A stretch of 64,000 bases of DNA from Hypomyces perniciosus. Its lineage: Eukaryota > Ascomycota > Sordariomycetes > Hypocreales > Hypocreaceae. Of this stretch, positions 1,711-43,294 are shown one piece after another; within the stretch, counting starts at the first letter, position 1; every line of letters starts with the position of its first letter. Below the pieces are notes generated by a model that worked only from the letters and a program-made list of their open reading frames with translations, did not search any database and had not been told where the DNA came from. The stretch covers positions 1,240,001-1,304,000 of the forward strand of contig SPDT01000004.1 of the NCBI GenBank assembly GCA_008477525.1. The letters run 5' to 3'. The position numbers and the translations under genes are program-made.

Positions 1711-2620
1711 CGTGGGGATTATGGATATGAACTGTCAACACTGGATATTATGTATATTTTGCAGACGAGCTGTAAACGAACGAAAAAATACTATAGGCGC
1801 AATATGAAGTTTGTGGTATCAAGGGAGAAACTTGCGCCAGCCCCAACCAAAGTGAGCTTGGGAGCTAAATATACGCGCCATGGCTAAGCTGTACTCCGTA
1901 GGAACAAATCTTTTCAAGCGTTGTCGGCACGGAATAGCTTCTTTTGCTGACGGCGGAAAAAAAGATGGCGCCCAATAACCCATGTAGTCGTGTCATGTGG
2001 TCGAAGAGGTCCGATGGTCGTCGCCATAATACGATTGCGGGTCAACGATGTCGGTCCGGGATGGGTTCCCATAGTGGCGGAGAAACTCACAACACCAACA
2101 CGCTCTACTATATGAAATCCCCCGATCGTGGACAGTGAGGCATCGGGCTTGTCTCACAAATTGGACAAATCCTACCGCCACCAGCCGAGGTCCAGACCAA
2201 TAGGCGAGGAAAATGTATTCGCCTCACTTGCAATCCTAACGCCGTTCTGCATCGACGGAGATCGCCAGGGTCAACGGGCCGGGGCAAGCCATACAGAGGA
2301 TATCCACTCCGGAATTCCACCGATTGGAACGGCAACATGTCTTAGATCGATGTGGGATTGGTTGCTGATGGTGTCGGTGACGGTCCTGAACCGGACCCGC
2401 CAAACGAGGAAATTCCGCCCGGTTTCTACCAAGTGATTTGTTGAAGCTTGAACCTGGTCTAAAGCTCCGAGCTCCGGATGGCGTATCGTTATGACGGGGA
2501 GGTGGCGTCTAACGGTGTATGCCCCTCCATCCAAGACCCGCTCTATTACCGTCCCCCACAATCAATTTTGTCATCTTCTTGTGCACATCGCTTCAGCCAT
2601 CGGGGATTATAAACGTCGTC
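1711..2620. other. Divergent intergenic region
   Basis: Promoter space shared by the MFS gene and the eIF1A-domain gene. It contains one copy of the recurrent TACTCCGTA element near 1892. The short open frames here show no family features, and no RNA gene is visible. Confidence 0.6.
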
Positions 2621-3081
2621 ATGGGTCGGCCAAAGCGCAACGTTCTCGCTGCGGCGCAAGAGGCGCTGTCCCCTCCTGATGCTCTAGAGCCCAATCAGAC
2701 CATCGTGCGCGTCATAAAGCCGGAAGGAAATAACTTGTACACCTGCGAGCTGCCAAACAAGAAACCAGTGGTCCTCGAACTTGCCCAACGATTTCGCAAC
2801 ACCATCTGGATCAAGCGCGGGGGATTCGTGTTGGCAGAGGGATATCCGACAGACACTCGGGATACCAGGGCAGCTGGGGAAATAGTCAACATCGTGCGCG
2901 ACGAGAAACAATGGCGAAAGCAGTCCTATTGGTAGGGCCTGGTTGCCAGATCGATATCTGCATTTGTGCTGAATGAAACTCTAGGCCGAAAGAATTTTCG
3001 AAAACCGATCTCGATATTAGCGATGACGAAGACGAATCCAACGTCGGAAAGATGCCCCCCAGCGATGACGAAGAGGACTGA
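2621..3081 (+). CDS. eIF1A/S1-like domain protein (EIF1AD type)
   Basis: Small RNA-binding OB-fold protein related to eukaryotic EIF1AD, a nuclear relative of translation factor eIF1A. Exons 2621..2931 and 2985..3081 give 135 aa; the 53-nt intron has donor GTAGGG and acceptor CTAG. The ATG at 2621 (MGRPKRN) was chosen because homologs start there; an upstream in-frame ATG at 2519 would add 34 residues without domain features. The OB fold spans about residues 25-90 (NQTIVRVIKPEGNNLYTCEL, then IWIKRGGFVLAEGYP). The second exon supplies an acidic tail ending DDEED, which is lost if the intron is missed. The gene is convergent with ALG3, with only 46 nt between stop codons, so the 3' UTRs probably overlap. 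Confidence 0.88.
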
Positions 3082-3127
3082 GGCAGCCCTGTTGTGCCAC
3101 TAGCCTCGCTACTCGTTTGCGAACCCA

Positions 3128-4547
3128 TCACCTCCTCTTCTTAGCTTCAGCCGCCTGTGTTCGTTGATCTGAAGGAGTGCTTTTCCCTGAGCCGAAATAT
3201 GCCATGGCAACTGTAATCGCAAGGATATTCACCACAACGGCTGAGCTGACGATGGTGCTTGGGAAGACATTCCAGGCCCATTCTTGCGCTACCCACAAGG
3301 GGACAACAATAGCCAGATTTGGCGAAGCTGTCCATAGCAAATACGGCGTCGCCCAAGCGAGATAGGCATAGAATTGGTAGTGGAGCGACCTGGCGAAGAG
3401 TAGGCCGACCACGTTGGCGGATAGGATGGCAGACATGACATATTGGGGGGTGACAACTCGGTTGGACACTTGGACCTCGGGTGACACACCCCGAATGAGG
3501 CATGCGACAATGTTGGTGATACTCTGTTCGGCAGGTCGGAGCCATTTGGCCGAGATGAAGATGAGAAGGACGATGGCATGAAGAGCGAGCAATATCGTAG
3601 CGAGCGAACGGCTGAGGAACAGTTCTTCGCCTAACATTCGCCAATTGACCGTCCACTCGAATTTGAATTGTCTCGAAAGCTCAAACGCCCGGCCAAGGTA
3701 TCCTGCCCAATTCTTGGTGATGAACGGGATAGCAATGACCAGCTGCACCTGCGCCATCAGCCACGCCAGCCGTATGCTGCCCCAGAAGCCTCGTCCTAGG
3801 AACAACACAACCGCAACGGCGGGAAGGACGAGCAGGAGTGACATCTTGATTCCAAGTCCCACGGTGTATGCCAGGCTTCCCAACGTCCATGCTCCCCGCT
3901 GAAAGAAGAATATCGCAAGCCATAGGAAGAATGTGGCGAAGCAGTCATTGAAGCATCGCAGAACAAAGACGCTGTGGAGTCGCTTCGAGAGGATCAGGAG
4001 GGGAAAGATATATGGCGGAACCTGAATTTGGCACATTTCTTAGTCAGGGATCTTGTCAGGTCAACAAGAGACATTGGAACCCACCTTGGCTTTCCAGTAG
4101 CAGAGCATCACCAAACTCAGTGTCGCCATGTATAATACACCAAAGATTTGCTGGGCCAGAAGAATGTTTTTGCCATTGTTTGTCAAATAGTACAGTCCAG
4201 TGTATATGTAAACGTGGGCAGCTGGGTAGACCAGCGGTCCAGTGCCACCCTCAATCTTTGGGTAGTCGCGCTCTCCATTGACGAATTGCGTGACTTGTTC
4301 CATGTATGCCACCCAGTCGATCTCGGTGTCTAAGGATATAATCGCATTGTTAACGTTCGGGATTGCTCCAGAGCTGCATGTCTCGGTGCCACTGACAAGG
4401 GACTTTCCAGATAATCAGGCCGCAGAGCATCGCGTCCGCCAGCCAGAGAGCCAGCGGGATAAATTTGGACAGCGAATGACGGCCATTGGCAACGTCGAGA
4501 ACAAATCCTAACGCCTGCTTAGGCATCGACTTGTCGGATTGAGACAT
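3128..4547 (-). CDS. ALG3: Dol-P-Man:Man5GlcNAc2-PP-Dol alpha-1,3-mannosyltransferase
   Basis: ER membrane mannosyltransferase of family GT58. It adds the first dolichol-phosphate-mannose-derived mannose to the lumenal N-glycan precursor. Three exons (4547..4397, 4329..4085, 4021..3128) with introns of 67 and 63 nt give 429 aa. The first join creates [16 protein letters not shown], the family's diagnostic N-terminal loop, followed by [15 protein letters not shown]. The later [26 protein letters not shown] motif and about ten hydrophobic segments are also typical. The tail is basic (EAKKRR), consistent with ER retention. Length and motifs match functional fungal Alg3, and no key segment is missing. 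Two copies of the TACGGAGTA-type element flank its promoter near 4713 and 4735. Confidence 0.95.
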
Positions 4548-4797
4548 GGTGTGCCTTTGACAAAAGCCTCGGCTTCTAAAGATACGCAAACGCAAAGGGT
4601 GTTGGTGCAGGAGTGCAACGTGGAGCTTCACGAAATACTCCGTACATAGCATCGGAAAACGCTCACTAAATTTCCCCGAGACCCACATTGAATGGACATA
4701 CATACATACAGAGTACTCCGTACCGACAGCACGGTACGGAGTACTAATACCGAAACCCACGATGCTGATTCTGGGACTCTCGATGCATCGTGATTAT

Positions 4798-6077
4798 TTA
4801 ATCCCACGAAAACAGCTTCGGTTCTCCATCCAGATTTTCTCCCCGTCTCTTGCGAATCTCATTCACCAGTTCCACAACTCTCTCAGCACAGCCATACGAT
4901 CCTTGATATCCCCAGCCCGCATGTCCGTAATTGTGGACAATCGAAGTCTCCTCGTCCAAAGCCTGCTCTTCAATCCTCACGCCGCCGTGTCGATACGGCC
5001 GCAGTCCAACATTGTGTCTGATGACGTCGAGGCCCTCGATGCCCTTGCCCCCAGCAAGAGCTGGCCAAACTTGCACGACTCGCTTCATGATGCGCAGTGC
5101 CACGTTGGGGTCGGGGACCGACTCCCAATTACCCAGGTCGTAGGTGCCGCCGAGAATAGTGCCTCCGCCGGCAGCGCGCTGCATGATGTAGATCATTTCA
5201 AAGGGGCTATCATCGGTGCCTGACGTGCCAATCATTGGGTGACATTCGTTCCGGATGAGGACCGTTTGCGCGCGAGCAGGAGTCATGGTTGTATCCAAGA
5301 CGCCCCCGAGCTTGAGAGACCCTAAGGCTGTTGCGTTGATGATGACGGAAGCTGGCTCGCCAGTATGGCTCAGGCCCTTGGCATCGCTAATGTCCGACAG
5401 CACTGCACGCTTGAACACAACCCCATTCTTGAGACACTGGCCAACGAGCCATGCGAGGTAGATTGGTGTGTTGATGCACACGCTCGTGAACTCAAATCCG
5501 GATTCATGTTCGGGAATCAGTTCATCCGGACTTAGCTCACGATAATCTGTGAATACAGACTTATACCACGGGTTTTCTGCGAACAAAGGCATCGTAGATA
5601 CAAGGCCTCCAGCTTCCATGTCTTTCCGCCGTCTAAACATGCGAGCTTCTGCGAGGGCCATTTATTAGTCGCACTGAACACACAGGACCCATAAGAGCGA
5701 ACTCACTCTGAAAATGGATTCCGGCCTCGGGAACGTCTTCAGTCAATCGCCTTAGTTCAGGCCATGTCCGACTCTCCCATCTGCTCTGCTCCTCTAGAAC
5801 CATCCTGCGCGTCTGCTATCAGTTCAATCCCATCGAGTAGTGCTGCATCAGAAGAACCCACGGCATCACATTGGCTCCGGCCCATGGCGATGCATATTCG
5901 ATGTCATAATCACCGGGCATATGTTTTGCAACCACCGTGATCTTGTTGGCCTTGCTTTTGGACAACAGAAGCGCTGAGGTGAGGCCACTCACGCCGGCCC
6001 TTGGCGATGGTTAGAAAGAGGGGCATTTAGCACAAATAAACCAGAGCTCACCCGACTACGACGATTGTGTTTGCCAT
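4798..6077 (-). CDS. D-amino-acid oxidase (FAD)
   Basis: Flavoenzyme of the DAO family that oxidises D-amino acids to imino acids with H2O2 release. The proposed exons 6077..6052, 5999..5870, 5812..5707 and 5648..4798 give 370 aa. The first join creates the FAD-binding motif [16 protein letters not shown]. The middle contains YASPWAGAN and [13 protein letters not shown], and the C-terminal region has the family signature [15 protein letters not shown]. The second intron is uncertain: a TGA and a TAG near 5820 force its removal, and donors at 5869 (GTGATG, 57-nt intron) or 5857 (GTTCTT, 45 nt) both keep frame; the first is used here. The protein ends FSWD, so no PTS1 peroxisomal tripeptide is seen, which is unusual for a fungal DAO. 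It lies 0.56 kb downstream of, and on the same strand as, the Lys2-like enzyme. Confidence 0.88.
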
Positions 6078-6635
6078 TTTATTTCGCAACGAAGATAATA
6101 TGAAATCAGGTCGACTTTTCTTGCCGGCTAACTGAAACCTGTTGACATTATCTCGAGAGGTATTCGGTAGGTAGTACTTTATACCTACGGAGTGCTCCAT
6201 ACATCATATGGTGCGCCATGTGCGGAATCATGTGCGGAACCATGCGGAGTCATTAGGCTCGGCATGCTACTATCGGCGCTTTCTTTGGTGAGCGTCCGTA
6301 ACCCTTCTCGTTTATGACCCCCTAATGCTCCGAGATAGGCGTGCCACCTATTGATATGATATGACAGGTGTCAAGGCAGGAAGTTGTGCTAAAGAACAAC
6401 TATGACTCTCATCCCGGTTAATTATCTACAAGCTGAATTTACAACAATGTCCAAATCCACAACGCAGACGATTCTATTACCACTTTCATAAACTTACAAT
6501 CACATTTCATTCATGACCTTTTTTGGATATTTGATATAGCCTTCTCAAGTTTTGCTGGATCTATAGACTATGTCTATATACTACTCTAATTTCTTAAACT
6601 CATATCCTACACAGCAACCCTCGTGGAACCGAGTC
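6078..6635. other. Spacer between Lys2-like enzyme and D-amino-acid oxidase
   Basis: It holds the 3' region of the Lys2-like gene and the promoter of the oxidase. A near-match to the recurrent element (CTACGGAGTGCTCCAT) lies at about 6184. No gene is seen. Confidence 0.55.
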
Positions 6636-9600
6636 TTACGCCTTTGAAGACCTGCCACCAACGCGACTTGCATCTAAAGCCTGTAGTCTCGCCTCGTCGA
6701 GCTCAGGCAAATCTCGCTGTCCCTTCGTCGATGGTGCCGGCAGGAAGCCAGTTGCAACAAGATACGCCAGATACATCCCACGAGTCTCAAGATCAACGGC
6801 ACTCGCAGCTAGAGGGTCCTCCTGGTCCTTAGCATACAGCTTCAACACTGCTGCAGCATTGGCATCGTCTAGCTCAGGGGCAATCGTGTTCGTGGGCAAG
6901 TCTCCCACCACGAAGTGAAATAGCGGGAGCAGGGCATACTCCTCCTCCCCTGCGTTATCACTGACATATTCCTTGACCTTTTCTGTCCACTCTTGGTAGG
7001 ATATCATTGGTACGGAGTACCCGTACACTTCCAGAGCACCAATCCACTCGTTCATTGTCGGTCGAGGATGGCCTGTGACCTGAACCACGCCAAGAGACTT
7101 CCCAAGAGCAGATGGCAAATGGAATGCTGCAGCAGTGACAATGCGACTGACTTGAGTGACAGGGACCGCGTTGACTGTGTTTGCAATGTCAGGACGCGCT
7201 CCCACCTGCAAACATCCCTTCCATAATCGAACCAAGAAGTCGTCCACCACGGAGATGCCTGACGCTGAGTCGCCGGTGATATAACCCGATCGAATAATGG
7301 CTCCAACAAGACCTCGTCGCCCGGCTTCGCGAACTATGAACTCACTCGCCCACTTGGCCTGGCCATACCCGTTGCCGAGACCCTTGCGACTACCCTCCAG
7401 GTCATCCGACTCCAGCACACCGGTCTCGGACTCCCGCGAGAGTCTGACGTAGTGCTCGCTATCCAGTGTTGAAGTCGAGCTGACGAATGCCAGCCGCTTG
7501 GCCTTTCCAGTAGCGCAGAGACGGATACAAGCCAGTGTACTGAGCACATTGGCTGCCCGCAGACTGGAGTATGGCAGCATCCAGTTAACCTGAGCGCCGT
7601 TGTGAATAACAACATCTATCTCATCGCAGAGGCGATTCCATGCGCCCTGTGATAGACCGAGCTGTGGCTTGGAGATGTCGCCTACGACAACCCCAAGTCT
7701 GGATGAGGATACATATGTTGGGGACCATAAACCGTAGGCCTTGAGTGTGGTCTCGAGTCGAGCGAGACCTGCTGATGAGTCCTTGGCTCTTACATGTGCA
7801 ATAACGCGCGCCTGGGTAGGGCCCTCGAGGAGTTCATGTAGAATGTACGAGCCTAAAAACCCCGTAGCACCAGTTAAGAACACAGTAGGGGTAGTATTGG
7901 TAAAGTCATCAATCGCCGCTCGAATGGTTCCGGGAAGTTGACGAACGAGATCCCTCGCATCTGCCGCGTACGCCTCGTCTTCTGCCGTTCCATCTCCAGG
8001 AAGAGGCATCGCATCGAGGCGCAGACCGATAGGATCCCGGGCACGGTCAATCTCCGCGGCAAGGGCCTCAAGAGTCTGTGATTTGAATATCACGCTTACT
8101 GGTGAGTCAAGATCTTTCCATTCTTTCTTTATATGGAAAAACATCTGCTGTGCAAGGATGGAATGGCCGCCTTCATCAAAGAAGTTGGAATCCGGCACGA
8201 ACATTCGTGCAGAGCGATTAGGAAGAACCAATGCCCATATCTTGGCTAGTCGGGTTTGTGTGTCTGTCATGTTAGCAGCCATGGATGAGGCCCTCCTTTT
8301 GGCGAAAGCAGCAAGATCCGCCTCTTCGGGGAAAGGAAGTGAGGGCTTGTCGACCTTGCCATTCGGATCTCGAAAGATGTTAGTTCGTACACCCAATCCA
8401 TGGAGGAGAGTGTCTTGACTTACTCAACGGCATTCGAGCCAAGGGAATTAAGATGCTGGGAACAGCGTATTTAGGGACCTTGGCAGCCAGGAATTTCTTA
8501 CAGTCTTCAGATAGGGACTTGAATCGTCTCAACATTATGGGCATTGTCATATCCTGCATATCCTGTTCAGCCAATCTCTCATGGCCTTGCTGCTGAAGGT
8601 GTTGAAACCATCTCTTTGTCTCGGGGACAAAGTATGTGACGAGCGTCTGCTCCTCATCCTTGTCTCTTCGAACAATGGTGATGTTTTCACACACGAAAGG
8701 GTGCTGTGACAGGTGTCCATCGATCTCGCCCAGCTCAATCCGAAAACCGCGGATCTTGACCTGCGAATCGACACGGCCAGTACATTCAACGCTTCCATCA
8801 GGTCGAATTCGCCCAAGATCGCCTGTTCTGTAAACACGGTCTCGCGGTCTCTTGTAAAACTTTCTCCAGGGCTCTTGAGCCCCAGAAGCTTCCTGTTTCT
8901 CATACTCCTGAGTCCATTTGGTTGGACCAACGAACCAGTTAGGTAGAAATTTGGATCGGTTAAGTTCAGTTGTTCTTTCATCGTCTCCAAGGTATCCCTC
9001 TGCAAGCCCAGCAGCTCGGATAAACAGTTCCCCTTGCTCACCCACTCCACAGAGTTTGTTCCTGTCTTCGCGATCGACAACTAAGAGCTGAACATTCAAG
9101 ACACCCTGGCCAACCGGCATCACATCTGGCAACAGATCCAGAAACGCAGAATCGTCGGCCTTGCTTGGAATCTCGAAAAATGACACGGCGCGCTGGGACT
9201 CCGTCGATCCATAGTAATTGATGACGGTAACGTTGGTTGCAAGATCGCGCAACTTTTGACAGTCCTTCTTGGTGAGGAGATCGCCGACAAAGAAGGCATT
9301 TCGAAGAGACGGAATTTGTGCTGTGGCACCGCCGACAAGGATCTGACCCATGGCAGGAGTCAAGTGAGTTACTGTGACATGGTGCTCCCTCATCCACTCA
9401 GCGAGTAGCTCGTAAGCGATTACGTCTGATGGAGGAATGACGATTTTGGCGCCCAAGAAGAGCGGGGTGAAGATGTCTCTCTGATTTCCAGCAGTTGGTT
9501 AGACTTAACTCTTACATAGTTATGATGGATTGCCTCACTTGAATTGGGTCGTGGACAATGCCAGACAGCATAGTGAAACTGTCTTCTTCTGAGAGGCCAA

Positions 9601-10537
9601 ATCTCTCTGTCGTCCAGGGGAAGTAATATGTCAATGAGAAATGGCACCCTTGGACACCCTTTGGCTTCCCCTCAGATCCGCTCGTGAAACTCAGAGTTGG
9701 AACCGAATCTGGTCCGACAAGAACGTCGGGGACAACCTCTCTGCTGAGGAACTGGGGCTCAAGGCAGTCCTTGCCCTCAACATCGCCTCCCTTAAGATGC
9801 CCATCGTCGAGAAGCTCCAGTGCCGGAACAGTAGATTTGATATGTAGGTTGCTTGCGATGAAATCTGTGACAGTGTCTGAGAGCTTGTCAAATTCCTCAT
9901 TGGCCTTTCGAATACAGACGAGGAACCCGGGATTCGCAATCTCCAACAAAACCTTCTGGCGCTCTGGGGGATACTGTGGATCAAGAACACTGACGGTGGC
10001 ACCAGCTTTGAGAGCTCCCATATAGGCAACCACGAGGTCAACCCTTCGCCATTGTCAGTCAACGACACGAAAGGAAAGCACAAGAAGAACCGACCCCCGG
10101 TAAGCGTATATCATGACAACATCTCCCACTCTACACCCATGAGCTAGAAAATGATGCGCTAACTGGTTAGAGCTCTCATTGATCTGTCGATAAGTAAAAG
10201 TGCGCTGAGCAGTCCGAGGGCCCCCGGTTTCGACAACACATGTTCTATTTGGAGACCGTTTCGCATTGGAAGCAAATATCTCGTGTATAGCTATGGTAGG
10301 GGGGGGGGGGTATGTCAGAATCTATCCAAAGAGTAATAAACTCGTGTCACTGCCTACCTCCACGATATCCGCCCCAATCCAGGTTGATTGTCGGGTCAGG
10401 GAGTGTAAACTGAGTGATGCTATCACGCGACATTTCAAGCAGGGAAAGTCTCGATGGATGTACATTCTCTCCCATCCTGTTGTTGGTAGTTGCCACAGTA
10501 TATATAGATAGTCAGAATCCTCCAACTTGGTGAGCAT
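6636..10537 (-). CDS. Lys2-like adenylation-thiolation-reductase enzyme, N-truncated
   Basis: Large NRPS-like carboxylate reductase closely resembling alpha-aminoadipate reductase (Lys2). It would adenylate an amino or carboxylic acid, load it on a phosphopantetheine arm and release it as an aldehyde with NAD(P)H. Six exons (10537..10527, 10476..10358, 10290..10095, 10043..9539, 9480..8424, 8368..6636) keep frame and give 1206 aa. A-domain motifs: LSFTSGSEGKPKG (~226), YYGSTESQRA, YRTGDLGRI, QVKIRGFRIELGEID, NPNGKVD (~630). Carrier motif DEGGHS puts the attachment serine at ~699. The reductase domain has FLTGATGFLGSY (~793) and YGQAKW (Tyr964, Lys968). Authentic fungal Lys2 is nearly 1400 aa with a condensation-like N-terminus; here upstream frames hit stops at once, so that part is absent or decayed. 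The 11-nt first exon has a weak GTTGGA donor. It is therefore a paralog or a partly eroded LYS2. Confidence 0.83.
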
Positions 10538-13500
10538 CTTGAGAAAGGAAGCACAGATCGTGGTTTACTCAGACGCAATAAGTCTCCGAGAGTCAAACTA
10601 GGGTCCGATTCCGTCCATTATTGCGGAGCACAAAGAAGATCTCTCTCTTACATAGATGACTCACGGACCGCGCCCGAGTTAAGTGTAATTATAGGGCCTC
10701 GAAACACTTTGTAAGTGCAGCTTACAAATTACATGGCCATCTTTCGCAGTGGTCGTTGTGAAGCCAAAAGAGCGTCAGTCGAGATTGACATGGGGATTTT
10801 CCGATGGTTTGAACCACCATTGGGGCCTCCTTAGATATAAGTTTCCAAATAAAGAGTTGTTCTAATATTAAAGGAGAAGAAAAAAGTAAAGGTTATCCGT
10901 TCCAATCAAATGCTCTTCATACAAACCACATAGACAGAGCAGTTGAAGCATAATGTAACCCTAACCCTGGGCTGCCTTGCAGAATCACACCGACCTTCAA
11001 ATAATAGCATTTAGACGAGCTCCAACCGCCATTTGGAGGTAAATATATGCATGCTCTGTGAATACGGGGGGGGGAAAATCATGAGATTCCAAGGGTAATT
11101 GTACCCAAGGTAGTGTGCTCATAACTCTCCTCCCGCAATCGGACTGGGAACATGGAAGTACGATCGGAATAAAAGGCTAGTCGCTTAAGATATCTGCAAT
11201 GTTCGTTATTGTCCTCCGGTCTACGAAGTACATGTGGTACAGAGTACAAAGTAATAATATTAAATTAATTGGGATCTACTAATAGGACGGCTCTACCCGT
11301 ATGACAACGTGACAGGCCTACCATGGGATGAAAACAATGGCAGCAGCCACGTTGGAAGGTTTCGCTATTATGCCTCTGCCATGTTTTACACTTGGGTAAC
11401 ATATCCTCTTGGATAATTGGTTGCACAACGTAGAAATGACGGCGAGGTGCATATTGCCGTCATTGGGAGGGCTATTGCTGCAGAAGCTATCCCTGAGATA
11501 CGATGCTCGGAGCAACATGTAGGATTGGCGGAAAGCGGGCGGAGCAGCACGAAGCACGTATGTATGAACCACACGTTACTCGCATGTCCATCAATCAGAA
11601 GCTACCGTAGCCAAAGGCAGACTTCCGTTGGGCTTCAGGTCGCATGATGCCTGCCTTTGGACGATCGCAGGCAATTGGCATCTGCAAAAGCAAAGATCAC
11701 TTAATAGGAGACGTCACATGTGACAACAGGCCATTGCGGCGCTCGTGACACCAACCAGGGACGACACGACACAAGAAATATCCACTTGGTCGCACCAAAC
11801 ACAGGCACAGAACGAGCCGCGCAGGCAGTGCAGAGTGCAGAACTGCTGCAGTGTTGACTTGTCGGCTGTATGTAATTTAGGCACGTCGAACAAAAAGCAA
11901 ACGCCAGCGAATCTCTGTTGAGCACTGCATGCACATTGCATGGTTGATTGGGTAGCCGTGGAGAGACCAGATGCTGCGTCGTACTCCGTACTTGTGCTAG
12001 TAATATGATCTGTAACCAGTAGAGCTGCAGGGTCCGTCGACATGGGATGATGGAACCCGGTTTGTCAGGTTTGTCATGACGTCTCCGGTTTTCCCAAGAG
12101 AATCAGGCCAGGTCGGAGGCTGGCCAGCCAAGGTAGGTGGTATTCTAATATGTAATAGTGGTGGTAGGTATCCCAATGATGCGGATGCTTCCAGCGCAAA
12201 GTCAAGAAGAGCAGGGGTTATATGATAGTGCTAATTGTACAGTGTGCACTGTACGGGCACGGAGAGGTCCTGTCAGACGTGATTTTGCAGTATCGGTGGG
12301 GCCGGATTTTGATGAACGATGGAAAAATTCAGGCAGCCTGACGACATGATAGCTGTCACGGAGATGTCCTCGTATGCCAACGCCTTCTTCATCCATTACC
12401 CAATTTTCCGTACATATGTACTCGTAGTAGTACTTCGTACAGATACGGGAATGTAGACCTCGGGTAGTGGCCTTGGAAGGGCATGTATCAGCAGCTAGCT
12501 GGCGAATACGAAGTCTACTGCGGGGACAATGAATGGTTCAAAAGTGATACGAAGTCGCACGCATGAGTCAATATTGCTACCTGCTATTACGAAGTACACC
12601 CACTGTACGGAGTACTGGGTGCACGTTGCGTCGTGGCGGGAGCAGAGATAGGAGGAGGTGGACGAGAGTATGTATGGACGGCTTCCCCGGGCGACCGATA
12701 GGAGAGAATTGCTTCGGAGCGGCGTTGTCAAACCCGATATCGCAAGACAGCAGCAGTATCTAGCATTCGCTGTCGTCGTCGTCGTCGAATAACGTTCATG
12801 CCGGCGTGCTCTAGATAGCTGACGCGACGGAAGATTACCTAGCGGGCGTGCAGCAACACGGGGACGTCAAAAGGGACGAGTGACAGTGGTCAGAAACCCA
12901 ATGAAGCGGCTCGGGTACGACGCCCAACAGGTGGGTGGCGTTGGATCTGAATCAGGGTCGTAATCGGCGGGTCGGAGGATAAGAATTCGTCAAGCCGTTG
13001 AGCTGGGGAAAACAGTCTCGTGGAAAAGGAGAGACTGGGAGAAGAAATGATCTGTTTCACGAGGGCAGATCTAACGATTCTGATCCGTCTCGGGTCGACC
13101 GCCTCTTTCAAAAGCAAACCAGAACCCGTCCAGTCATGATTCATGGCGTCTTCCAGTCTCTTGATTTTTCGAAGAGATGGGAGGAAGGCTTGGAACTAAC
13201 GAGTTGGTGAGAGCTGGCTCTCAGATGGCCGCGTCCACGCTAGGAGTGTGGCTGCGAGGTGGCAAGCCCCAAGACGCACGATTGGAGAGGCTTGGGAGGT
13301 TGTAAGTTCATGACACCTCTTTGGGGAGAGATGAGGCTGGGCGGGCGACGCCGTGAATGGCCAGCTCGTCAAGTTGCTTCTGTAGCAGGCCATATGATCT
13401 CTTTTCCCTCTCCAAGCCGGAAGGTGATAGCTTTTTCAAGCAATCTATTTTCCTTGGGAGGAAATGGACTCGAGATTCAAACTCGCTCGACCTTGGGCGA

Positions 13501-15351
13501 TAGAGCGGTCGGTGATGGTGTGTTAGCGCGGTTGACAATGCTACTCCGGACCTGCACTACCATTAATGGATGACCTGCTGATGATGCTATTGTTAGTAGA
13601 CTAGCAGTCGCCGGAAGAGTTGGATCGAAAATAGAAGCCCGGGATCAACCCTGCATTGTCATCATCGATTATGTACTCGTATGCTGTCTCGCCGTTGGGC
13701 ATTGCATACGGAGTACGAAGTACGAAGTACAGTACCAAAGTATGCACTCCAGCCACAATTGTACGGCGCAGTGGTGCAGAGAAAAGACCGTCCGCACTGT
13801 GGATGAGCTCACACTCACATGAAACCTTTGCAGGCAAGTTGGTGCCCAGGCCCAGGCCCAGGGCAAAAGGGCAAAAAGGGCTTCCCAAGCTTCCATTGTT
13901 AGGTCCATTGTTGACAAACCCTGCCACCCCGCTTTTCGCCCCTGTGCGGCGTGTACCTGTCCCACACCACCAGAGTGTATAGTGTGTGCCAGGAGGTGAT
14001 GTGATGGAAAAGTTGGAACAGGTACGGAGTACAACTCGGGAGTATACTGATACGGTAGGGAGCGCATATAAGTCCTGCTCTCTCTTGATCTGGCCGCGGA
14101 TTACTAGACATGACGAGAATTATGTAGAAAATCTCAGCAAGAAAGGAATTACAAATCAATCAACTTTAGCATCCAGCATCGGTTTTATCCGGTGTCTTCA
14201 TGTGTCTCTGCTAGCAGCAGCAGGTCTTATCAGTTGCGGTAAGTAACGCCACTCTGATGTACCTCATGTACCCCGTACGACCCGATCTCAGACAGCAACC
14301 CAGCAACCCAGCCATTGGAGAGCCTGCCACTGTACAGGTAGTGAGTGGTATTTAGGTAGTGGTAGGTACGGAGAACCTGGGTACGATACGAGCCAGGTCC
14401 TGTGCCAAGACGCATGCTCTGTTGGTAAACTGGGTGCGGCGTGGTAGCTCTCACCTCAGCATGGCTTCGAGTCTGTAATATTTTTATAAAAAAATCTGCC
14501 CATGTTATTTCCCCTTTGCCTCCTGAACAGTCGGTCCAGAATTGGTCCTGGCGCATGCTGGGTTTTCTCTCTCCTCCGTGCCACCACGCGCTAACATCAC
14601 CAGACCAGATCGCCAGCCAGGCGATGAAATGCGCACGCACAGGCTTTCGAACAGTGGGGGGCTACCCATGCCCTTAGGCCCTGTCCACTGCCCTGTCCAC
14701 TGCCCACCACCCACTGCCAGCGCCCCCCCGGCCCTTCCAAGTGCCACCTCCAACCACTAAATTAACGCCATTGCCTCCCGCCCTCCACTTGGCATCTTCA
14801 TTTCAACCCTCCAAACCACTTCCACTTCCACATCTTCCTCCCGGTCCGATCTCTTTTTCTCCCTCTTTCACCTGAGGCCCGAAATTCAATCCCCATCTTT
14901 ACACACGTCATATCATCTTGCTTGTTATTCTGCAAGACTGATTACCACATAAGGTACCTACTATTAATACCGCATCAGACCCGATTCTGCTTCGTGTTTT
15001 GCATTTTGCATACCACACAACGGCCGAGACGATGTTCTAATTCCTAACTCCCAGCGCTGCGCTACAAAGCACGCCTGGTTTCACTACCGACGGCTGGCTT
15101 GCTCAATCCAAAACCGACCAACTGCCGCCACCTTCATCCCAAACTTCAGCCGACGCGCCTTGGGGGATGTGTTTGCAGCTCGTGATTGCCTCATGCGCGT
15201 CTATTCTCCCTTCGCCATTGCTCTTCACAACTTAGACCAGCATCATGCTACCTCACGGCTTACCTGATAGCGATTCAAGAACAAGGTATACACTCAAAAA
15301 GACGACCTCGGAGTAGAGGCATTGCCGTCACGGCGCGCAAAAGGCATAAAG
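10538..15351. other. Large gene-free region (4.8 kb)
   Basis: No credible coding exon was found on either strand; the open frames are short and lack family motifs. It contains four copies of TACGGAGTA/TACTCCGTA (about 11982, 12604, 13708, 14023) and related TACGAAGTAC strings near 12433 and 13723. The last ~600 bases before 15352 are pyrimidine-rich and look like the promoter and 5' UTR of the next gene. Two degenerate frames just upstream of 10537 (encoding FDSRRLIASE, then a stop) resemble the missing Lys2 N-terminal part. Confidence 0.55.
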
Positions 15352-17781
15352 ATGGCACTGTGGCTCTTTCGGCGCGGGAGCGGCCGCAAACGCTCTCGTA
15401 GCGGCGCTGCGCTCTCTGATACAGAGACTGCTCCGCCCAGAAACTTGACAGGGGGGATCGTCAGGACAGAATCCAAGAGGAAACAGCGCGCCGAAACTGC
15501 CAAGTTGACCCGGCGTGCGCGCACGTACAGCTTCTCGCCCGACCGTCAAGACTCGATTCACGTCGACCGAAGTAATCGGGGTCCTGATATCGCTGGTCAG
15601 AATGGGCGACCAACCGAGGCAAATACTCAAGACCCTGCTTGGGATCAGGTCCCAACACTACACCACAAACGAAGCAGCAGTCACCCAGTGAGGAGGAAAA
15701 GCAGTAAGAGGAGGCGGGAAGACTACAGCCGAGAGGCTGAGATCAAGGCCATGAGCACCTTTACCCCCATCCGATCGGCTACAGATGCTTGGGTAGCAGA
15801 TCGCCCAATGACCGGTCATAAAAGAGCAAAGACGATGGGTGCCGGGAGAGCATGGGACAATCCCGCCTCCGAGCTCTCACTACCTATCGCTGCATCGATT
15901 CATTCTACTCTCTCGTCCGACTCCGAATTCGTATCATACAGAATATCTACTCTCGACTCGCTCGCACCAAGACCAACCTTGCGGTGTGCGCCAGGACCAC
16001 GATTATTATCATCGCGCGCTTCGGTTCCTACGCGATCAGGTTCGAACAAGAGGACCTTGGCTGATCGAGTGCCGATATCCGAGGAGACGCTGAAAGCGCA
16101 CAAGCGTATCGACGACCTCGCCGACGATTTTGATGCCGGTGAACTACGAGAACTCATGGAGAGGGATGCCAGGAGACAGGAGAGACATCGGCAGCGGGAG
16201 CGAGAAAAGATGGAGCGAAGACTAGCCCGCAAGGCTGAAAGACAAAAGAAAGAGGAAGCTGAAGCAAGAATAACAGGAACGCCACCTCCCGAGAATCTCG
16301 AGCGAGGAGTCATGGGTCGAGAGCTGGTTGGTGTATGCATCGACCCACCATCAACCGTGGTGACGTCCTCCAAGCACCGAATTCCTCCTGAGCCAATGTC
16401 AGACGTTGAGGAGGAAGCCCCCGACAGCTCGCACGGAGAGTCCCAGAAGCAACCACTCGAATCGTTCCACCGGACAGATACGGCACCACTAGATCATGGC
16501 GTGGCGCAACTGACTGGAGAGTCTTCGCATCACATTACCGAAGACGACAGACCCATTTCTACATTACCGCCTAGTTTCAAGATCGAGAGCGTGCTGAAGT
16601 CGAAACAATCGAAATCAGGGTCAACGTTGAATTCCGATCGGGAAAAGCCAGCTTCAGCAATCGATGATGATGCGGCCACGCGTAAGGATTCCATTGCTAG
16701 TGGCAAAACGAACCGCCTGTCGTTCACTTCATTTCTCAGATGGGGTCTGAGAAGTCGTCGCAACTCCGGCGGCCCATCATCCTTCTCCAATACTTCCCGC
16801 GAAGAGATGGCTGCAGCTGCCGCTGCCGCGCAAGGTCAGGCACAGACATTAACACAGACACACGCGAGAGGTGAAGATGTTCCATCCAGTCCACCACCGT
16901 CTTCAGGTAACTACCTAGCGAGCAAACCAGGTTCGGGAGTGCCTAAGCGAACACGGTCTCGCTTCCGAGAAGACCTCCCAGAGCTTCCACTGTCGCCACC
17001 CTATTCACCTGGAGCGGAGCCTCCGCTGCCCATTGTGACAGAATACAGGTCTTCTGAACTAGAAACAGCGCCACTGAGTCCTGTACAAGATGACCCGCCA
17101 GCATCTGGTCCTCGGCCGATAGATATCCCACGTCGGACAGGCACTTCTGAGACGATGTATGATGCCCATCCTGCAGAGCAGTATCTTTCCCTGTCTCTCG
17201 CATCCATTGATTCAGAGGCCTCCTGGCTCTCGGGGCGGGTCAGTAGCCAACGAAGATCAGCTATTCGTGATAGTATGAATCGACCCAAGCGGCGAGATAG
17301 AGATCACGCAGCCGAGTCACTGAGCAACAGCACGCAAGAGGACCTTACCAATCCTGGGGATGACTCGCACGCTAGGAACTCTACCATCTGCCAGTCTGGA
17401 GAAGGTCGCTTCAGCAGTGATGAAGATGCACTGATGGAAGACGGAGAAGTGAGATGGGGCGTGGTCGATGCCTCTCATCCACAATTAATCTCTACACATA
17501 GACACGACCGGGATACCTTCCATAGTCGCGAAGGCCTGCTAAACATCGATTCAGGGGATGAAGAGGATCTCGAATCACCGATTTCTCCCATCTCTCCAAC
17601 TTCCCAAGGGACTGAGGAGAAGGTTGACTTGCAGCACGCCAGAAGCGTGTGTGTTGGTCCATCCCATGCCCGCAATTACAGCGCCGGGAGTGCGAAACTT
17701 CTGGATATTGGCTCGCCAGCGTCGTTTGACTACAGAAACGGGAGCCAAGAGGAAGCAAACGGTGGACAGCTCCACTCATGA
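15352..17781 (+). CDS. Large disordered conserved fungal protein
   Basis: Function not recognised. One uninterrupted exon encodes 809 aa starting MALWLFRRGSGRKRSR at the ATG at 15352; in-frame codons upstream lack an ATG. The protein is rich in Ser, Arg, Pro and acidic residues. It has basic clusters (SSKRRRED, KKEEAEA) that could act as nuclear signals. The best-ordered part is a charged helix at about residues 245-310 (IDDLADDFDAGELRELMERD followed by a long Arg/Glu coiled-coil-like stretch). An alanine run (EEMAAAAAAAQGQ) and SP-rich segments (SPISPISPTS) suggest phosphorylation. I believe similar proteins are widespread in Pezizomycotina, but I cannot name a function. A long pyrimidine-rich leader precedes the gene. 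Confidence 0.82.
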   Translation: MALWLFRRGSGRKRSRSGAALSDTETAPPRNLTGGIVRTESKRKQRAETAKLTRRARTYSFSPDRQDSIHVDRSNRGPDIAGQNGRPTEANTQDPAWDQVPTLHHKRSSSHPVRRKSSKRRREDYSREAEIKAMSTFTPIRSATDAWVADRPMTGHKRAKTMGAGRAWDNPASELSLPIAASIHSTLSSDSEFVSYRISTLDSLAPRPTLRCAPGPRLLSSRASVPTRSGSNKRTLADRVPISEETLKAHKRIDDLADDFDAGELRELMERDARRQERHRQREREKMERRLARKAERQKKEEAEARITGTPPPENLERGVMGRELVGVCIDPPSTVVTSSKHRIPPEPMSDVEEEAPDSSHGESQKQPLESFHRTDTAPLDHGVAQLTGESSHHITEDDRPISTLPPSFKIESVLKSKQSKSGSTLNSDREKPASAIDDDAATRKDSIASGKTNRLSFTSFLRWGLRSRRNSGGPSSFSNTSREEMAAAAAAAQGQAQTLTQTHARGEDVPSSPPPSSGNYLASKPGSGVPKRTRSRFREDLPELPLSPPYSPGAEPPLPIVTEYRSSELETAPLSPVQDDPPASGPRPIDIPRRTGTSETMYDAHPAEQYLSLSLASIDSEASWLSGRVSSQRRSAIRDSMNRPKRRDRDHAAESLSNSTQEDLTNPGDDSHARNSTICQSGEGRFSSDEDALMEDGEVRWGVVDASHPQLISTHRHDRDTFHSREGLLNIDSGDEEDLESPISPISPTSQGTEEKVDLQHARSVCVGPSHARNYSAGSAKLLDIGSPASFDYRNGSQEEANGGQLHS

Positions 17782-19131
17782 TGATCATACCAATGATGGG
17801 CCACAGCAGCAGAGGAAGAGTTCTCAAAAAGAAAAAAAAGCGCCGTCGATAATAACTATGACAGTTAACGGCACAATTGTGTTTCCTTTGTCGCTCCTTT
17901 CCATATTTTCTCGAAATGGTACAAAACAGAAAAAGATTGCGGGAAAAAAAGAATTCTAGAAAAAGTTTGAAAAGACAAACGGGAACTCTGAACTCTGGCT
18001 GCCCATCATCACACATATACCATCATGCACAGGGGATATGTCACTTGAAAGTTTAACTTCGCGAGCACCTTGTTGTTTAATACGGCCCTGATGAATCATG
18101 GCGGGCGTTGGATTGTTGCATTGTATTTTGGGTTCTCCCTGTTCTTAACGCACATATACCAGATTTGATACCCGCCTGTTGCCGAAGAGAGATCTTTGAC
18201 TCCTTCGCACTGTCATTGTGTTTTTTCGGGGAAACGGATGCATTTAGCCGGAGGGCATGGGCTATCTGGCGAAACGGGCATGGATATGCTGGTTGCTGGC
18301 AATTTACCCTTTTTACTCGACTGGAATACGAAGTACTACTGGATAGGGTATCATCGCACTGGATTGCCTCCCTGTTTTGCAGGGCATGGATTAGCTTTCT
18401 TGGTGGCATGGTTGCCCAAGTGTGATCTCTGGCAAGCTTCTGGAAACATTTGGACACATGGGTGCATGGTCTCGTAAGCGATGCATGGTTAAGATGGCAA
18501 TGGGGGTGATTTAATATGATTTTAATTTCCTCTCTTCACCAACAAACGCAAATAGAGGCTTCATTCTACATGGATGGGGTCAAACCTGCATGGGAAGCCT
18601 GATCGTCTGGGCCATGGGCTCATTTGGATAGCATGGGGGATATGTACATAGGTTTTTACCCTTTTCTTGGCCATGTGGCATAGCAAGGGAGGAAGTCTGC
18701 AATTGAAAAAGGATTTCAACGTTGACTTAAGGATATGATGTGAGATTGTAAATCGAGATGAATGTTGAATGCATGTGCAGCAGAACCTGGGGTAATACAG
18801 CCTGATGGCGAGTGAACCAAGGCAAGAAGCCCAAATGATATATATGTATGTATGTATGTATATATATATATGTAAAAGAGATGGTATATTATAAATACAA
18901 GCTTGGGTCTTTACTCGACATCTTTTCAGCCCAATTTTGTGGTTTGTTTGACAATTCGTCTCTTTCCTCCACCCAAGTCGGAAGCTCGGTGCGTGCTTAT
19001 CTAATTCCGCGATCTTTACTCATCTATCGCCACAACCAAAATGATAATAACTTGACTCTCCCATTGTCTTCGCCCAACACACATACCTTGCCCCCTCTTT
19101 CTTTGCTTTTCAAAAAGAACTGTCCTCCATC
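17782..19131. other. Intergenic region with TATG/TA microsatellite
   Basis: It carries the 3' flank of the disordered-protein gene and the promoter of the thioredoxin gene. An imperfect TATG/TA repeat spans about 18838-18872. Repeated CATGG-type words are common at 18230-18700. No gene is supported. Confidence 0.55.
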
Positions 19132-19727
19132 ATGTTTCCGATGCGCTTCTTCAGACCTGTGTCGTCACTGGCCCGCCAGGGCGTCGCGTCGAATCGCCTG
19201 TTCCACTCGACACGTGCTTCTCTGGCTGTGCATAATATCAAGACGTGAGATTTGCCCGCCTATCCGCTGATTCGGATGATTTGACACTGAGACTGAATTT
19301 GCTTTTTAGGGTTGGAGAGTTTAGGGAGATTCTTAAGACACAGGACAAAGTCCTGGTGGATTGCTTCGCAGCTTGGTGCGGGCCGTGCAAAGTCATTGCG
19401 CCTATTCTAGAAAAGTATGTCCTCTCACATCCTCCTTGTCCATTTCACATCGGCTTTCTCTTCAAAGGCGCTTTTCTTTTCTTTTATGGGATAGGGGAAG
19501 GGCACGTTGCTAATGGATATGTGGGCAGGCACTCGAATGAAGAGGAATTCAAGGATCAAGTCCACTTCGTCAAGTTCGATGTGGATGAGGTGCCGGAGCT
19601 GACCCAGGAGCTGGGTGTGCGCGCAATGCCGACTTTCTTTTTCTTCAAGGGTGGAGAGATGGTTGATCAGATGGTTGGAGCCAATCCGCCTATGTTGTTG
19701 CAGGCTCTGAGGCGGATGAATGTTTAA
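19132..19727 (+). CDS. Mitochondrial thioredoxin
   Basis: Small disulfide reductase of the thioredoxin fold. Exons 19132..19244, 19310..19414 and 19529..19727 (introns 65 and 114 nt) give 138 aa. The N-terminus (MFPMRFFRPVSSLARQGVAS, then NRLFHSTRASLAV) is basic, Ser-rich and free of acidic residues, as expected for a mitochondrial presequence. The active site WCGPCK lies in exon 2 (DCFAAWCGPCKVIAPILEK). The cis-Pro loop (VRAMPTFFFFKGG) and the end of the fold are in exon 3. The length after removal of a ~30-residue presequence fits a single-domain thioredoxin. Reading through either intron gives frames without sense, so both joins are well supported. Confidence 0.92.
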
Positions 19728-20384
19728 GCCTTGAGAGGTAGGGGTGGAAGAATAAGTATGGTTGGTGCATGAAATGAAGCTGATGTGCTTATGAGATTCG
19801 GAATCACAACGTGCTCAAGTGCTTGAATGTATGGAAGCAAGATGTTAATGATGAAGAGTTGCGATGGACAACCTAGCGATAGCTCGATTATGAACAGACA
19901 TGTTCCAAGGAACAGCCCTAATACAAGAAACATATCATATTTTTATTTCATCTTATATTTTGGCCAATTTTCTTAACTTTTTACCGTTATTCTGACCACA
20001 GATTTGTCTTTAAGTTGATATTGTTGCAGGTGGTTGCAGAAAGTTGTTCCAGACTGTGAGAGAGAGACGGTCAAATCAGCGATTGCAACACGCCAGGATT
20101 TTTAATTAAGAAAAATACTTCTATAAAACAACAACAGAACTTGTATCGACGATCCTCATGAATCAATTAAACGTCAATAGATGTATCCTGTGAACATCAT
20201 TCCAAAAGCCGTTGATGAGTTCAATCCCGGTCACGTGATGTGAAATATGGCTGTTAGGCGGTGTTTCTCCAGCAACGCACCCAACTTGTTTATCAAATCC
20301 ACATGACAAGGGAACATCGCAACTCGTCGCAAGTCCACCAGATCAGACTCAATCGCGCCCCCTGCGCACAATATCCTCCTCAAA
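19728..20384. other. Intergenic, NUF2 promoter
   Basis: AT-rich spacer between two plus-strand genes. A TCACGTGA palindrome (E-box-like) at about 20232 lies ~150 bases upstream of the NUF2 start. No gene is seen. Confidence 0.5.
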
Positions 20385-40261: not shown

Positions 40262-42130
40262 TCACCAATGTCAGGCGCCCTTGTTTCTGGACATCCAAAC
40301 AAATCACCTAGACTTCCATCAAGACTTTACTGGTCGCTCCCGTGTCGACGTGTGTTCCGAGGTCAATCCCCTCGGTATTATACAACTACCTCAAGATTGG
40401 TAGGCGTTTGTTTTACTCTCCCTGTCCTTAATTCGACCTGAGGGCGGCATCCTTCCAGTCTTGGTCTGGACGGTAAGACTGGCTTATTATCACGACATTC
40501 ATGCCTGCTCTAAGCCGAGGCCGATTTTCTTTACTAGTATCACGATCTTCATGACCTTGCATGGCCGGCGTTTTGCTAGACTTCACGAGGTATGCGTGAA
40601 TGGGTTTCAAATACTTTCTTCTGCTGCTTGTTTTTTTTTTTCTTTCAATCCCTAGTTTTGGGGTATATTTCATGTGGTATGCCTGAGTCCGAATCCGTCA
40701 GTCTTCCTCGCTATAATCAGGATAGTGAGGCTTCATTTTCTTTAAACCTTTTGATGACAGGACGCCTTTCTTCTTTCCCTCATATCCGATGGGTACCGTG
40801 CCTTTCCCCTATCATACCAGAGACGTGATCCATGAACTCCCAATAAGATCTCATCTGCCCTCTTCAGACCTCCCTTCGCAAAGCACTCGACGAATACGTG
40901 GCGGTGGACCGCTTTTGCGAGTGCTCATACCTACACCTCCCAATCATAGATGGCTCTGTCCCTTACATCAAATCCCTCCCTACCCTTAAAACAAACTCTC
41001 CTGCTGAGAGCATGCCCTTGACATATTTCTCGTTTCTTTCTTGAACGACGGCCCTATCATGGTCTACTCCAATATGCTCCACTCGGTTGAGGTAATATAC
41101 CAGAGCGATAATCGCCTTGTAGAGGGTGCGGAAGGCAGCCCAACGGAGATGCTACTAAAAGTGTATCGGGATGATACTTTGACCCATCCTGGAACGGCGT
41201 TGAGGTGATTTACGATGGATATCAAGTAATATGCATTCTTCCACTCCATTACATGGACAGCCGGACGTGGTCTTGGTACTGACACGCGGTGTGTGCCCTT
41301 CCTGGGCTGTGTATGCGCAATATCAGCAGCATCCAGTCTCGTGAGGGCTTGGGAATCGAGAAGCAGTCTTAGCTACCTTCCACATTAGCTGACCAATGCC
41401 TCGGGGTTGGAGAAAAAGTTCGGGGAACATATATTTGTTGAGGCCGCCTCGTTGCTCAAAGCGGATTTTCTGTTATTTTTCCACTCCAGTGCTGATATCA
41501 GCATCGGCGAGTAAGATGTTCCGAGATTGTCAACTGTGCGAACGGGAGAAATGATTTAGAGGTGGGAGAGGTAAGTGAGTAGCTTGGCTGTTGTGATTCT
41601 CGAGGCCATGGTGAGGGAGTTAGAGATACCCTATATAGAAATAGAGTTGGTTATTTTTTCCTAATTGAGTTCCACTGTACTCCGTATGTGTTGGGGGAAT
41701 TCGTGTGCCGGATCTAAAAGCATGTAAGACTCGCATTTAGGAGTAGTATGTGGACATAATCAGATAATATTGACATACTACTACGAAGTAGGTAGTTCAT
41801 AATGTTGTGTGACGTCAACTTCCCCGGATTGCCGCTGTGTTCCTAATTTTCCCCACCCTACATTTTGAATGCACTGATTAAATGAGAATCTCTCTTCCCT
41901 GCTCGTATTGAATAGGCAGGCATAACTGTCTGGTAAGCCAGAAAAAATGTAGATATTCCATTAAAACAATTGACGACATCTTTCTCATCAGCAGGCAAGC
42001 AGCCTATCTAATGCAGTAATTAGAAAGGGTTAATCTGGTCTACCCTGTAATCCATTTTACTATACGGAGGGCGTTAACGTGAATTGACTCAATGAAAGAG
42101 GCAAAAGAGATTGACAAAAAAAGATATGAT
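40262..42130. other. Intergenic region with no supported gene
   Basis: 3' flank of the zinc-knuckle gene followed by AT-rich DNA. It holds one TACTCCGTA copy near 41679 and a TACGAAGTA string near 41782. No exon with family features is seen on either strand. Confidence 0.5.
42116..42122 (-). terminator. Pol III oligo-T terminator of tRNA-Trp
   Basis: Seven consecutive T on the minus strand, 8 nt beyond the tRNA discriminator base. No run of four or more T lies inside the tRNA gene itself. Confidence 0.75.
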
Positions 42131-42326
42131 TGAGGAGCACCCGATTCGAACGGATAACCTTCACTGTCATATTTTGTTAATATCAAAGGCCTTATTTAGT
42201 TAGGCAGCCTGTTGTAGCCACTTACGGAAATTCCAAGACTGGAATCTGACTAGGTGGGAATTAGTCAAAGTCATTTGTAAGCAGGCGAGAGAAGAACATA
42301 CCGCGCTACCGTTGCGCCAGCCCCCC
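42131..42326 (-). tRNA. tRNA-Trp(CCA) interrupted by three introns
   Basis: Read on the minus strand. The 7-bp acceptor stem (GGGGGGC with GCTCCTC, two G-U pairs) is complete, with discriminator A. A box TGGCGCAACGG and B box GTTCGAATC match consensus, and the D arm (GCGC/GCGC) and T arm (ATCCG/CGGGT) form. Between base 26 and the variable loop lie: insertion 1 (42301..42250, 52 nt, GTATGT...GACTAAT...CCTAG); a 24-nt segment 42249..42226; insertion 2 (42225..42164, 62 nt, GTAAGT...CCTAACT...GACAG); then TGA AGGTT. Joining the segments gives stem TCAGA/CCTGA (4 of 5 pairs; A31-C39 mismatched), loop TTCCAG with anticodon CCA at 42243-42241, and a canonical 10-nt intron TCTTGGAATT whose TGGAAT complements ATTCCA of the anticodon loop. 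Both extra insertions look spliceosomal. The alternative is a decayed tRNA carrying an insertion. Confidence 0.75.
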
Positions 42327-43294
42327 AGTTGCTGCACGACGCTTTCAAGTTCCTTTATAATAGAGGTAGCCAGAAAGTGGTGTTGATGCGATGTGATTCC
42401 TGCCCTGTGCTCCGAATGTCAAAGCGAAGTTATTCAACTAAAACGCAGTAAACAGTGGAAGTGACTATCTAACGTAGTCAAATGGGTTGCTGCGGTTATG
42501 AGTACGACCTGGGGTGAGAATTCTTGCTCCCTGCGGATGTTCCAGGGACGTTTGAGAGCGCACCGGAACTAGCAGAGATGTGCATTTCTCCAAGAAGACA
42601 GGTCGTGGTCATAGGATAGCGAGGTAGACACCTCTAACTAGCTGGGCTTGACTTTATAACACAGTAACAAAAAAAGAGAAAAAAAAAGAACATAAGAATA
42701 CTCTATCACACAGTATTGTATAAGCTACCGAGAAATCCTATTGGCTTAATACTTCGTACTCCTCCTGCGTTCTCGTTAGGGTCAGGCAAATAATCACCCG
42801 GACGCTAACAAATAGTGGCGCAGTAGCTCCCGCTTTTGCATTCCTCGTTGTTTTCAGGGTCTCTGATGGAGTAGAGATCTGCATGTTATTACAAGCTTGT
42901 TTTTGACTGTGGCGATTGGTAGTACATATAGTACATACCTACTGCATGTACTTCGTACGTATGTACATTGCAGCAGAACGCATTTCCGGCACTTATTTCC
43001 GAAGGGATAGATGATGTGACGAACAGCGTTTTGATGGACTTGTTTTAGGGTAAATCCAACAAACAATACTTGGTACTCTTTAAGCTTGCATCCAATAAAA
43101 TGAATTCATTACAAGTATCAACTACTTAGGTACCTAATACTGCCGTCGTGACGCAATGCTCGCTAACTCGACTCGCTATCTCGGAAAGAACATGAATGGG
43201 ACCTGCCGTCAGATAGGCAGTGGTAGGTAAAAGAGGAAAGAGAGACGGAAGGAAGGAAGCACAACAAGAGCCTCTAAAAGGATGGATACAGAAA
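42327..43294. other. Intergenic region between tRNA-Trp and Zn2Cys6 gene
   Basis: AT-rich DNA with TACTTCGTA-type strings (about 42751 and 42949). No gene is seen. Confidence 0.5.

Follow-up and report, generated by a model that had tools for sequence, protein, structure and literature searches.

We suggest that the nuclear tRNA-Trp(CCA) genes of Hypomyces perniciosus are transcribed by RNA polymerase III (Pol III) into pre-tRNAs from which the extra introns would be removed by the spliceosome and the canonical intron by the tRNA endonuclease. We consider this the best reading, with a probability of roughly 0.82. One of these genes, called copy D here, lies in the analysed window, a stretch of 64 kb from one contig, and its four relatives (copies A, B, C and E) are found elsewhere in the genome. 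The exon structure, the signals, the pattern of conservation and the result of the search for an uninterrupted tRNA-Trp gene, of which none was found, can be read directly from the DNA.

When three inserts are taken out, the sequence of copy D on the minus strand, from 42326 to 42131, reads as a nuclear tRNA-Trp(CCA) gene extending from G1 to the discriminator A73, and all features given for it below lie on this strand. Exon 1 (42302..42326, 25 nt) contains the 5' strand of the acceptor, bases 8-9, the D arm and base 26, and is identical to the corresponding exons of A, B and C at 25/25 positions. Intron 1 (42250..42301, 52 nt) is inserted between bases 26 and 27 and is of spliceosomal type (GTATGT ... 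CTAAT ... TAG), with position and signals that are common to A, B and C. Its putative branch site CTAAT (42260..42264) is located at an identical distance from the 3' splice site in A, B, C and D, and the 26/27 boundary of copy D can slide by one base, owing to a G at both ends, with the product unchanged. The first part of exon 2 (42239..42249) provides the 5' strand of the anticodon stem and the loop with CCA up to base 37, and is followed by a canonical intron of the tRNA-endonuclease type at 37/38 (42229..42238, 10 nt), which pairs with the anticodon region. Bases 38-40 (TCC, 42226..42228) separate this intron from intron 2, another insert of spliceosomal type between bases 40 and 41 (42164..42225, 62 nt; GTAAGT ... 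CTAAC / TTAAC ... CAG), which is not present in A-C. Exon 3 (42131..42163, 33 nt) comprises the 3' strand of the anticodon stem, the variable loop, the T arm, the 3' strand of the acceptor and A73. Box A (TGGCGCAACGG, 42309..42319) and the core of box B (GTTCGAATC, 42143..42151) were read against what we take to be their consensus, and a T7 run of the Pol III terminator type (42116..42122) starts 8 nt past the gene. In addition, a degenerate eukaryotic 28S rRNA-like fragment (Rfam RF02543, 24-26 bits against a cut-off of 50) is present directly upstream of copy D on the opposite strand, at 42343-42520 (+) of the window.

The joined copy D is a 72-mer with a 7-bp acceptor, a 4-bp D stem, a 5-bp T stem, 4/5 anticodon-stem pairs and A73, and its single mismatch is A31-C39. 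ARAGORN, run with artificial flanks, called it tRNA-Trp(cca) only when both long inserts were removed; as long as one or both of them were left in place, the call was Glu, Gly or Val. Together with the paralogues, the joined sequence and this call confirm the preliminary description of a tRNA-Trp(CCA) gene carrying two spliceosomal-type introns besides a canonical one; the intact arms, the discriminator A, the T7 run 8 nt downstream and the complementarity of the 10-nt intron to the anticodon region (4/4 pairs in the central helix) were all seen again. The splice signals had been described as textbook, and here the branch site of intron 2 needs a correction: its CTAAC is 36 nt away from the 3' end, and a closer candidate, TTAAC at 13 nt, is non-consensus. 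As to how often such signals arise, all three were present in 22 of the 2,301,966 segments of 48-65 nt in the window (9.6e-6; both strands, true introns included). A stricter definition of intron-like strings gave 13 in the window, three of them mutually overlapping and one being intron 1 of copy D, compared with 6.0 (sd 2.6) in 20 shuffles.

When we searched the genome assembly (44.0 Mb in 23 contigs) with the gene itself, five places were found, namely A to E, and an anticodon-arm pattern with up to 3 mismatches allowed returned the same five places, each with 0 mismatches. A D-arm pattern, likewise with up to 3 mismatches, gave 7 matches, comprising A-D, two Arg(CCT) genes that were confirmed by ARAGORN, and one place that we did not take as a tRNA. 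The idea that copy D might be the sole tRNA-Trp gene is thus superseded, as it has four relatives in the genome. Copies A, B and C form a cluster within about 1.6 kb of contig C10, a contig other than that of copy D, where A (start 1440536, plus strand, 26/27 insert of 55 nt) and B (start 1440762, plus strand, 54 nt) are in tandem and C (start 1439363, minus strand, 54 nt) is inverted. Each of the three has a canonical intron of 9 nt and none has a 40/41 insert. Their T-runs are T9, T6 and T7, located 2-5 nt past the gene end, so that each of the four intact copies A-D has retained box A, box B and, 2-8 nt past its end, a run of T6-T9. After removal of the long inserts, ARAGORN called A, C and D as tRNA-Trp(cca) and returned B as undetermined. 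With the intron taken as an insertion, copy A scored 33.5 bits in the Rfam tRNA model, more than the cut-off of 29 bits, whereas at E-values up to 0.01 the model found neither B nor C on the same locus, nor D or E. Copy E (minus strand, match at C16:3746748-3746973) is on the contig of copy D, about 2.5 Mb off, and is decayed. Both long inserts have counterparts in it, each without its 5' GT; its exon 1 is 2 nt shorter, in the D arm; and exons 1 and 3 are altered. The loss of the 5' GT from both introns together with the shortened D arm in this copy is counted in favour of the best reading.

The mature sequences of A and C are identical (72/72), and B agrees with them at 71/72 positions; since all three lie within about 1.6 kb, gene conversion could contribute to their likeness. 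Copy D differs from A at 8 of 72 mature positions. All of these are in stems and every altered pair is still a standard one, three of the altered T-stem pairs in exon 3 having changed on both sides. The first 48 mature bases of D are identical to those of A-C, although these exon blocks are parted by diverged introns. In detail, the bodies of intron 1 are largely diverged, since only A-B and A-C are alike above shuffled sequences (7/500 and 3/500 shuffles as good), and the other four of the six pairwise comparisons among A-D are at chance. What stays constant in intron 1 of A-D is GTATGY, YAG and a CTAAT whose spacing to the 3' end is the same in all four. A 5' splice site GTRWGY and a 3' YAG are found in 5/5 introns (A, B, C and the two of D, D1 and D2) and not in the decayed E. 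A pseudogene would be expected to show exons decaying like its introns; the exons of A-D are conserved, and those of E are altered. Exact removal of the long inserts restores the tRNA sequence, and intron 2 is the only one of them that is present in one paralogue and cleanly absent from others. A-C have an uninterrupted TCCTGA where D has intron 2, so that the splice predicted in D matches its own paralogues.

The preliminary description had offered four options, one being that intron-like insertions killed the gene. Death of the gene is unlikely for A-C, and for copy D it is judged the less probable outcome. The form of this option that survives best is that the spliceosome processes A, B and C into functional tRNAs, and that copy D is a pseudogene killed by its second intron-like insertion. 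Its paralogue E has decayed, it stands on another contig than the A-C cluster, the second insertion has the weaker branch site, and the weak LSU rRNA-like fragment adjoining it hints at a rearranged site. However, the 48 unchanged mature bases and the eight differences with pairing kept speak against this, as do the splice signals, box A, box B and T7 of copy D, which are all intact, and we regard death of this one copy as doubtful. The A31-C39 mismatch, previously held to be a point against function, is no evidence against copy D, because A, B and C share it, although for the family as a whole it is still weighed against the best reading.

The Pol III and spliceosome reading also depends on which machinery would remove the extra inserts. 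At the canonical 37/38 intron, the central helix of the bulge-helix-bulge has 4/4 pairs in A, B, C and D. When the same strict geometry (4-bp central helix, 3-nt bulges) was applied to the long inserts, no such motif was found at 26/27 or 40/41: the central helix at 26/27 has 0, 2, 0 and 2 of 4 pairs in A, B, C and D, and that of intron 2 has 0, or 2 with the canonical intron still present. Other bulge offsets gave at best 3, 3, 2 and 3 of 4 pairs at 26/27 in A-D and 3 for intron 2. The signals of the tRNA inserts resemble those of what we take to be ordinary fungal introns, and conservation of GTATGY, CTAAT and YAG is not expected of introns cut by the endonuclease. It has nevertheless to be weighed whether the tRNA splicing endonuclease could be what cuts the inserts at 26/27 and 40/41, which would make them non-canonical tRNA introns like those of red algae, nucleomorphs and archaea. 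In favour of this, the 26/27 boundary can be shifted to 25/26, the other bulge offsets allow up to 3 of 4 helix pairs, and archaeal introns at 25/26 as well as eukaryotic non-canonical introns are described in passages of a review (PMC4090602). With the strict motif missing and the conserved splice signals to be accounted for, this option of the preliminary description loses ground, and we consider it improbable.

We also folded the RNAs, and folding was dropped as evidence, as neither the spliced nor the precursor folds gave support. The minimum free energy structure of the spliced 72-mers is not a cloverleaf; with the canonical intron kept, copy A folds to a cloverleaf and D does not. In the precursors, for which every intron was placed in the exons of copy A, the share of shuffled introns that let the arms form equally well was 31, 20 and 12% for A, B and C, and, as a poorer result, 79% for intron 1 of D.

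A spliceosomal intron appears to interrupt each of the two U6 snRNA genes detected in this genome, just ahead of ACAGAG (L222:1449-1605 and L223:1442-1596, near C3:1700161 and C4:5851670). The two genes read AAACGAT, then an intron of 60 or 58 nt with GTAAGT, CTGAC or CTAAC, and YAG, then ACAGAGAAG, and a box-B-like GTTCGAACC lies inside each intron. The 5' exon was identified from what we take to be the U6 sequence, as the Rfam match itself begins inside the intron. With this precedent for an intron in a Pol III gene of the same genome, action of the spliceosome on a Pol III pre-tRNA would be mechanistically plausible.

Transcription of the tRNA-Trp genes by Pol II rather than Pol III would be an alternative, given that the spliceosome ordinarily works on transcripts of Pol II, as is also stated in one study (PMC8527467). 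Against this, box A, box B and the nearby T-runs are retained in the four intact copies. No T run longer than three is present in any tRNA intron (A, B, C, D1 or D2), a feature that we dropped as evidence for Pol III since T5 occurs in just 4% of 54-mers and its absence is accordingly weak. Overall, we consider transcription by Pol II improbable.

The preliminary description had proposed a genome-wide check for normal tRNA-Trp(CCA) genes, several of which would, on the sequence side, make copy D an insertion-disrupted pseudogene. In the pattern searches of the genome, no intact gene of the same specificity without the 26/27 insert was found. When box A followed by Y32-T33-CCA at normal spacing was searched genome-wide, there was one exact match, with no T loop nearby. 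One mismatch allowed, the pattern gave 45 matches including the exact one, and 28 of them end in CCA. Six of these 28 have 3-4 D-stem pairs, and in none of the six is a T-loop motif present in the following 120 nt or so; the D stem was the sole ground for discarding the remaining 22, apart from the exact match. Arg(CCT) and Arg(CCG) genes, along with three strings that by anticodon read as Cys(GCA), came up with the same one-mismatch pattern and serve as its positive control. A search of the genome with the 72-nt spliced sequence found A, B and C only and is insensitive, because copy D, although known, was not among its results. In the Rfam search 62 tRNAs are listed, but it is no census, since just 63 of 2316 candidates were scored. 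Based on these searches, all nuclear tRNA-Trp genes found in the assembly appear to carry the 26/27 insert (decayed in E), within the limits of patterns that assume a 7-base D loop. That all five copies are dead, with an ordinary tRNA-Trp gene unassembled or missed, would exploit exactly these limits of the D-loop assumption, the spliced-sequence search and the Rfam scoring, but it is extremely unlikely in view of three clustered copies that keep 71-72/72 mature bases alike while their introns drift, of the Arg and Cys genes recovered, and of an assembly in so few contigs.

The mitochondrial set has its own tRNA with a TCA anticodon; ARAGORN calls it SeC when the standard code is applied, and we read it as the mitochondrial tRNA-Trp. 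As separate observations on the assembly, contig C8 (4.19 Mb) starts, in positions 1-20000, with a mitochondrial-type tRNA set, and contig C17 (145 kb) contains parts of the mitochondrial tRNA set about twice, with matches about 75.6 kb apart; perhaps these are a mitochondrial concatemer and a nuclear copy or a misjoin. The Nuf2 protein (447 aa) had its best named matches among hypocrealean fungi, with identities of up to 89%, and none of the 120 matches listed out of 1198 was identical.

We then looked for similar inserts in other isotypes and other organisms. Patterns that ran from box A, with a D loop of 7, 8 or 9 bases, to GTRWGY gave 5, 2, 0 and 0 matches in the genome. The 5 matches are A-D and one place without tRNA features by eye, and the 2 further matches were judged to be chance, from the matched strings only. 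No other isotype with an intron of the 26/27 type was found by these patterns. Elsewhere in the genome, a 15.3-kb stretch (L053, contig C2) consists of tandem units of about 2.9 kb, each with a tRNA-Lys(CTT)-like gene (47.7 bits), with five matches on the contig. Among viral and prokaryote genome contigs, an exact 22-mer had no matches, and neither had an exact 21-mer among viral contigs. An exact 18-mer, searched in both collections, matched 23 + 114 stretches, at least 137 in all, most of which by eye are prokaryotic tRNAs or chance matches, and GTRWGY followed the match in 0/137 among the matches listed. One of the stretches examined, L154:4983-5055 (-) on a contig of a Maritimibacter MAG, is a eukaryote-like intronless tRNA-Trp followed by a T-run, and is probably contamination.

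Based on these observations, we propose that copy D is one member of a tRNA-Trp gene family in which every member found would have, at 26/27, a spliceosomal intron of the U2 type (decayed in E), and that copy D would have a second U2-type intron between 40 and 41 besides the ordinary one at 37/38. RNA polymerase III would transcribe these genes from the internal A and B boxes to the T-run, the spliceosome would remove the GT-AG introns, probably in the nucleus, and the tRNA splicing endonuclease and a ligase would remove the 37/38 intron, in an order that we infer; copy D would then contribute functional tRNA. Of the four options in the preliminary description, cross-talk between Pol III and the spliceosome gains most, because the 26/27 insert is in all five genes and no gene without it was found, because exons are conserved while intron bodies drift, because boxes and T-runs are kept, and because the U6 genes appear to have introns. 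We consider it likely that all cytosolic UGG codons of this fungus are decoded by a tRNA whose existence depends wholly on the spliceosome cutting a Pol III transcript, with all nuclear tRNA-Trp genes carrying the 26/27 intron, the 40/41 intron gained within the family (or lost in the others), and two splicing systems acting on one pre-tRNA.

If this is true, translation would depend on the spliceosome through a tRNA and not through mRNA alone, tryptophan decoding would be coupled to splicing capacity, and the spliceosome would handle short Pol III transcripts beyond U6. The introns of tRNAs and of mRNAs are taught as separate systems with separate machines, and an isotype that needs both would break this division. 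As close paralogues differ in whether they have the 40/41 intron, the family would also offer a clean example of how an intron is gained or lost in a gene whose product has a fully known structure. Genes of this kind can escape tRNA annotation, as ARAGORN and Rfam at its gathering score called nothing in the 64-kb window. For tRNAscan-SE 2.0, the part of the publication on non-canonical introns describes their search for archaeal tRNAs (PMC8450103).

We found no report of spliceosomal introns in tRNA genes in the open-access literature searched, in agreement with the earlier statement that no fungal nuclear tRNA with such introns was known. According to passages of a review, insertions in the D and T arms of eukaryotic tRNA genes mostly hit one of many synonymous genes and are taken as marks of pseudogenes, with nucleomorphs and Cyanidioschyzon as exceptions (PMC4090602); here, in contrast, all synonymous tRNA-Trp genes found are interrupted. 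The same passages describe several introns per tRNA gene, some of them outside 37/38, in Cyanidioschyzon merolae, nucleomorphs and Crenarchaeota, and in this respect the present genes are alike. However, the introns of archaea and C. merolae are attributed to the tRNA endonuclease and bulge-helix-bulge motifs, and splicing in nucleomorphs is left open there (PMC4090602), whereas the long inserts of the present genes lack the strict motif and have spliceosomal signals. As in canonical nuclear tRNA genes, A-D each have one 37/38 intron, of 9-10 nt and paired to the anticodon region, but here it is one of two or three introns per gene.

The U6 snRNA gene of fungi such as Schizosaccharomyces pombe is likewise a Pol III gene with a GT-AG intron and a branch site. 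U6, however, is a component of the spliceosome, and for its intron one study favours an origin by reverse splicing close to the catalytic bases (PMC10484740), while a tRNA has no such link; moreover, the box-B-like sequence is contained in the U6 introns of this genome but in none of the tRNA introns. The nuclear rDNA of lichen-forming fungi is also described as having short spliceosomal introns, which the spliceosome removes from a structural RNA that is not a Pol II product (PMC8527467). Those introns lie in rRNA genes of the repeated rDNA transcribed by Pol I, whereas the introns described here lie in tRNA genes, and in every tRNA-Trp gene found. We class them as spliceosomal introns that sit in a new kind of host gene.
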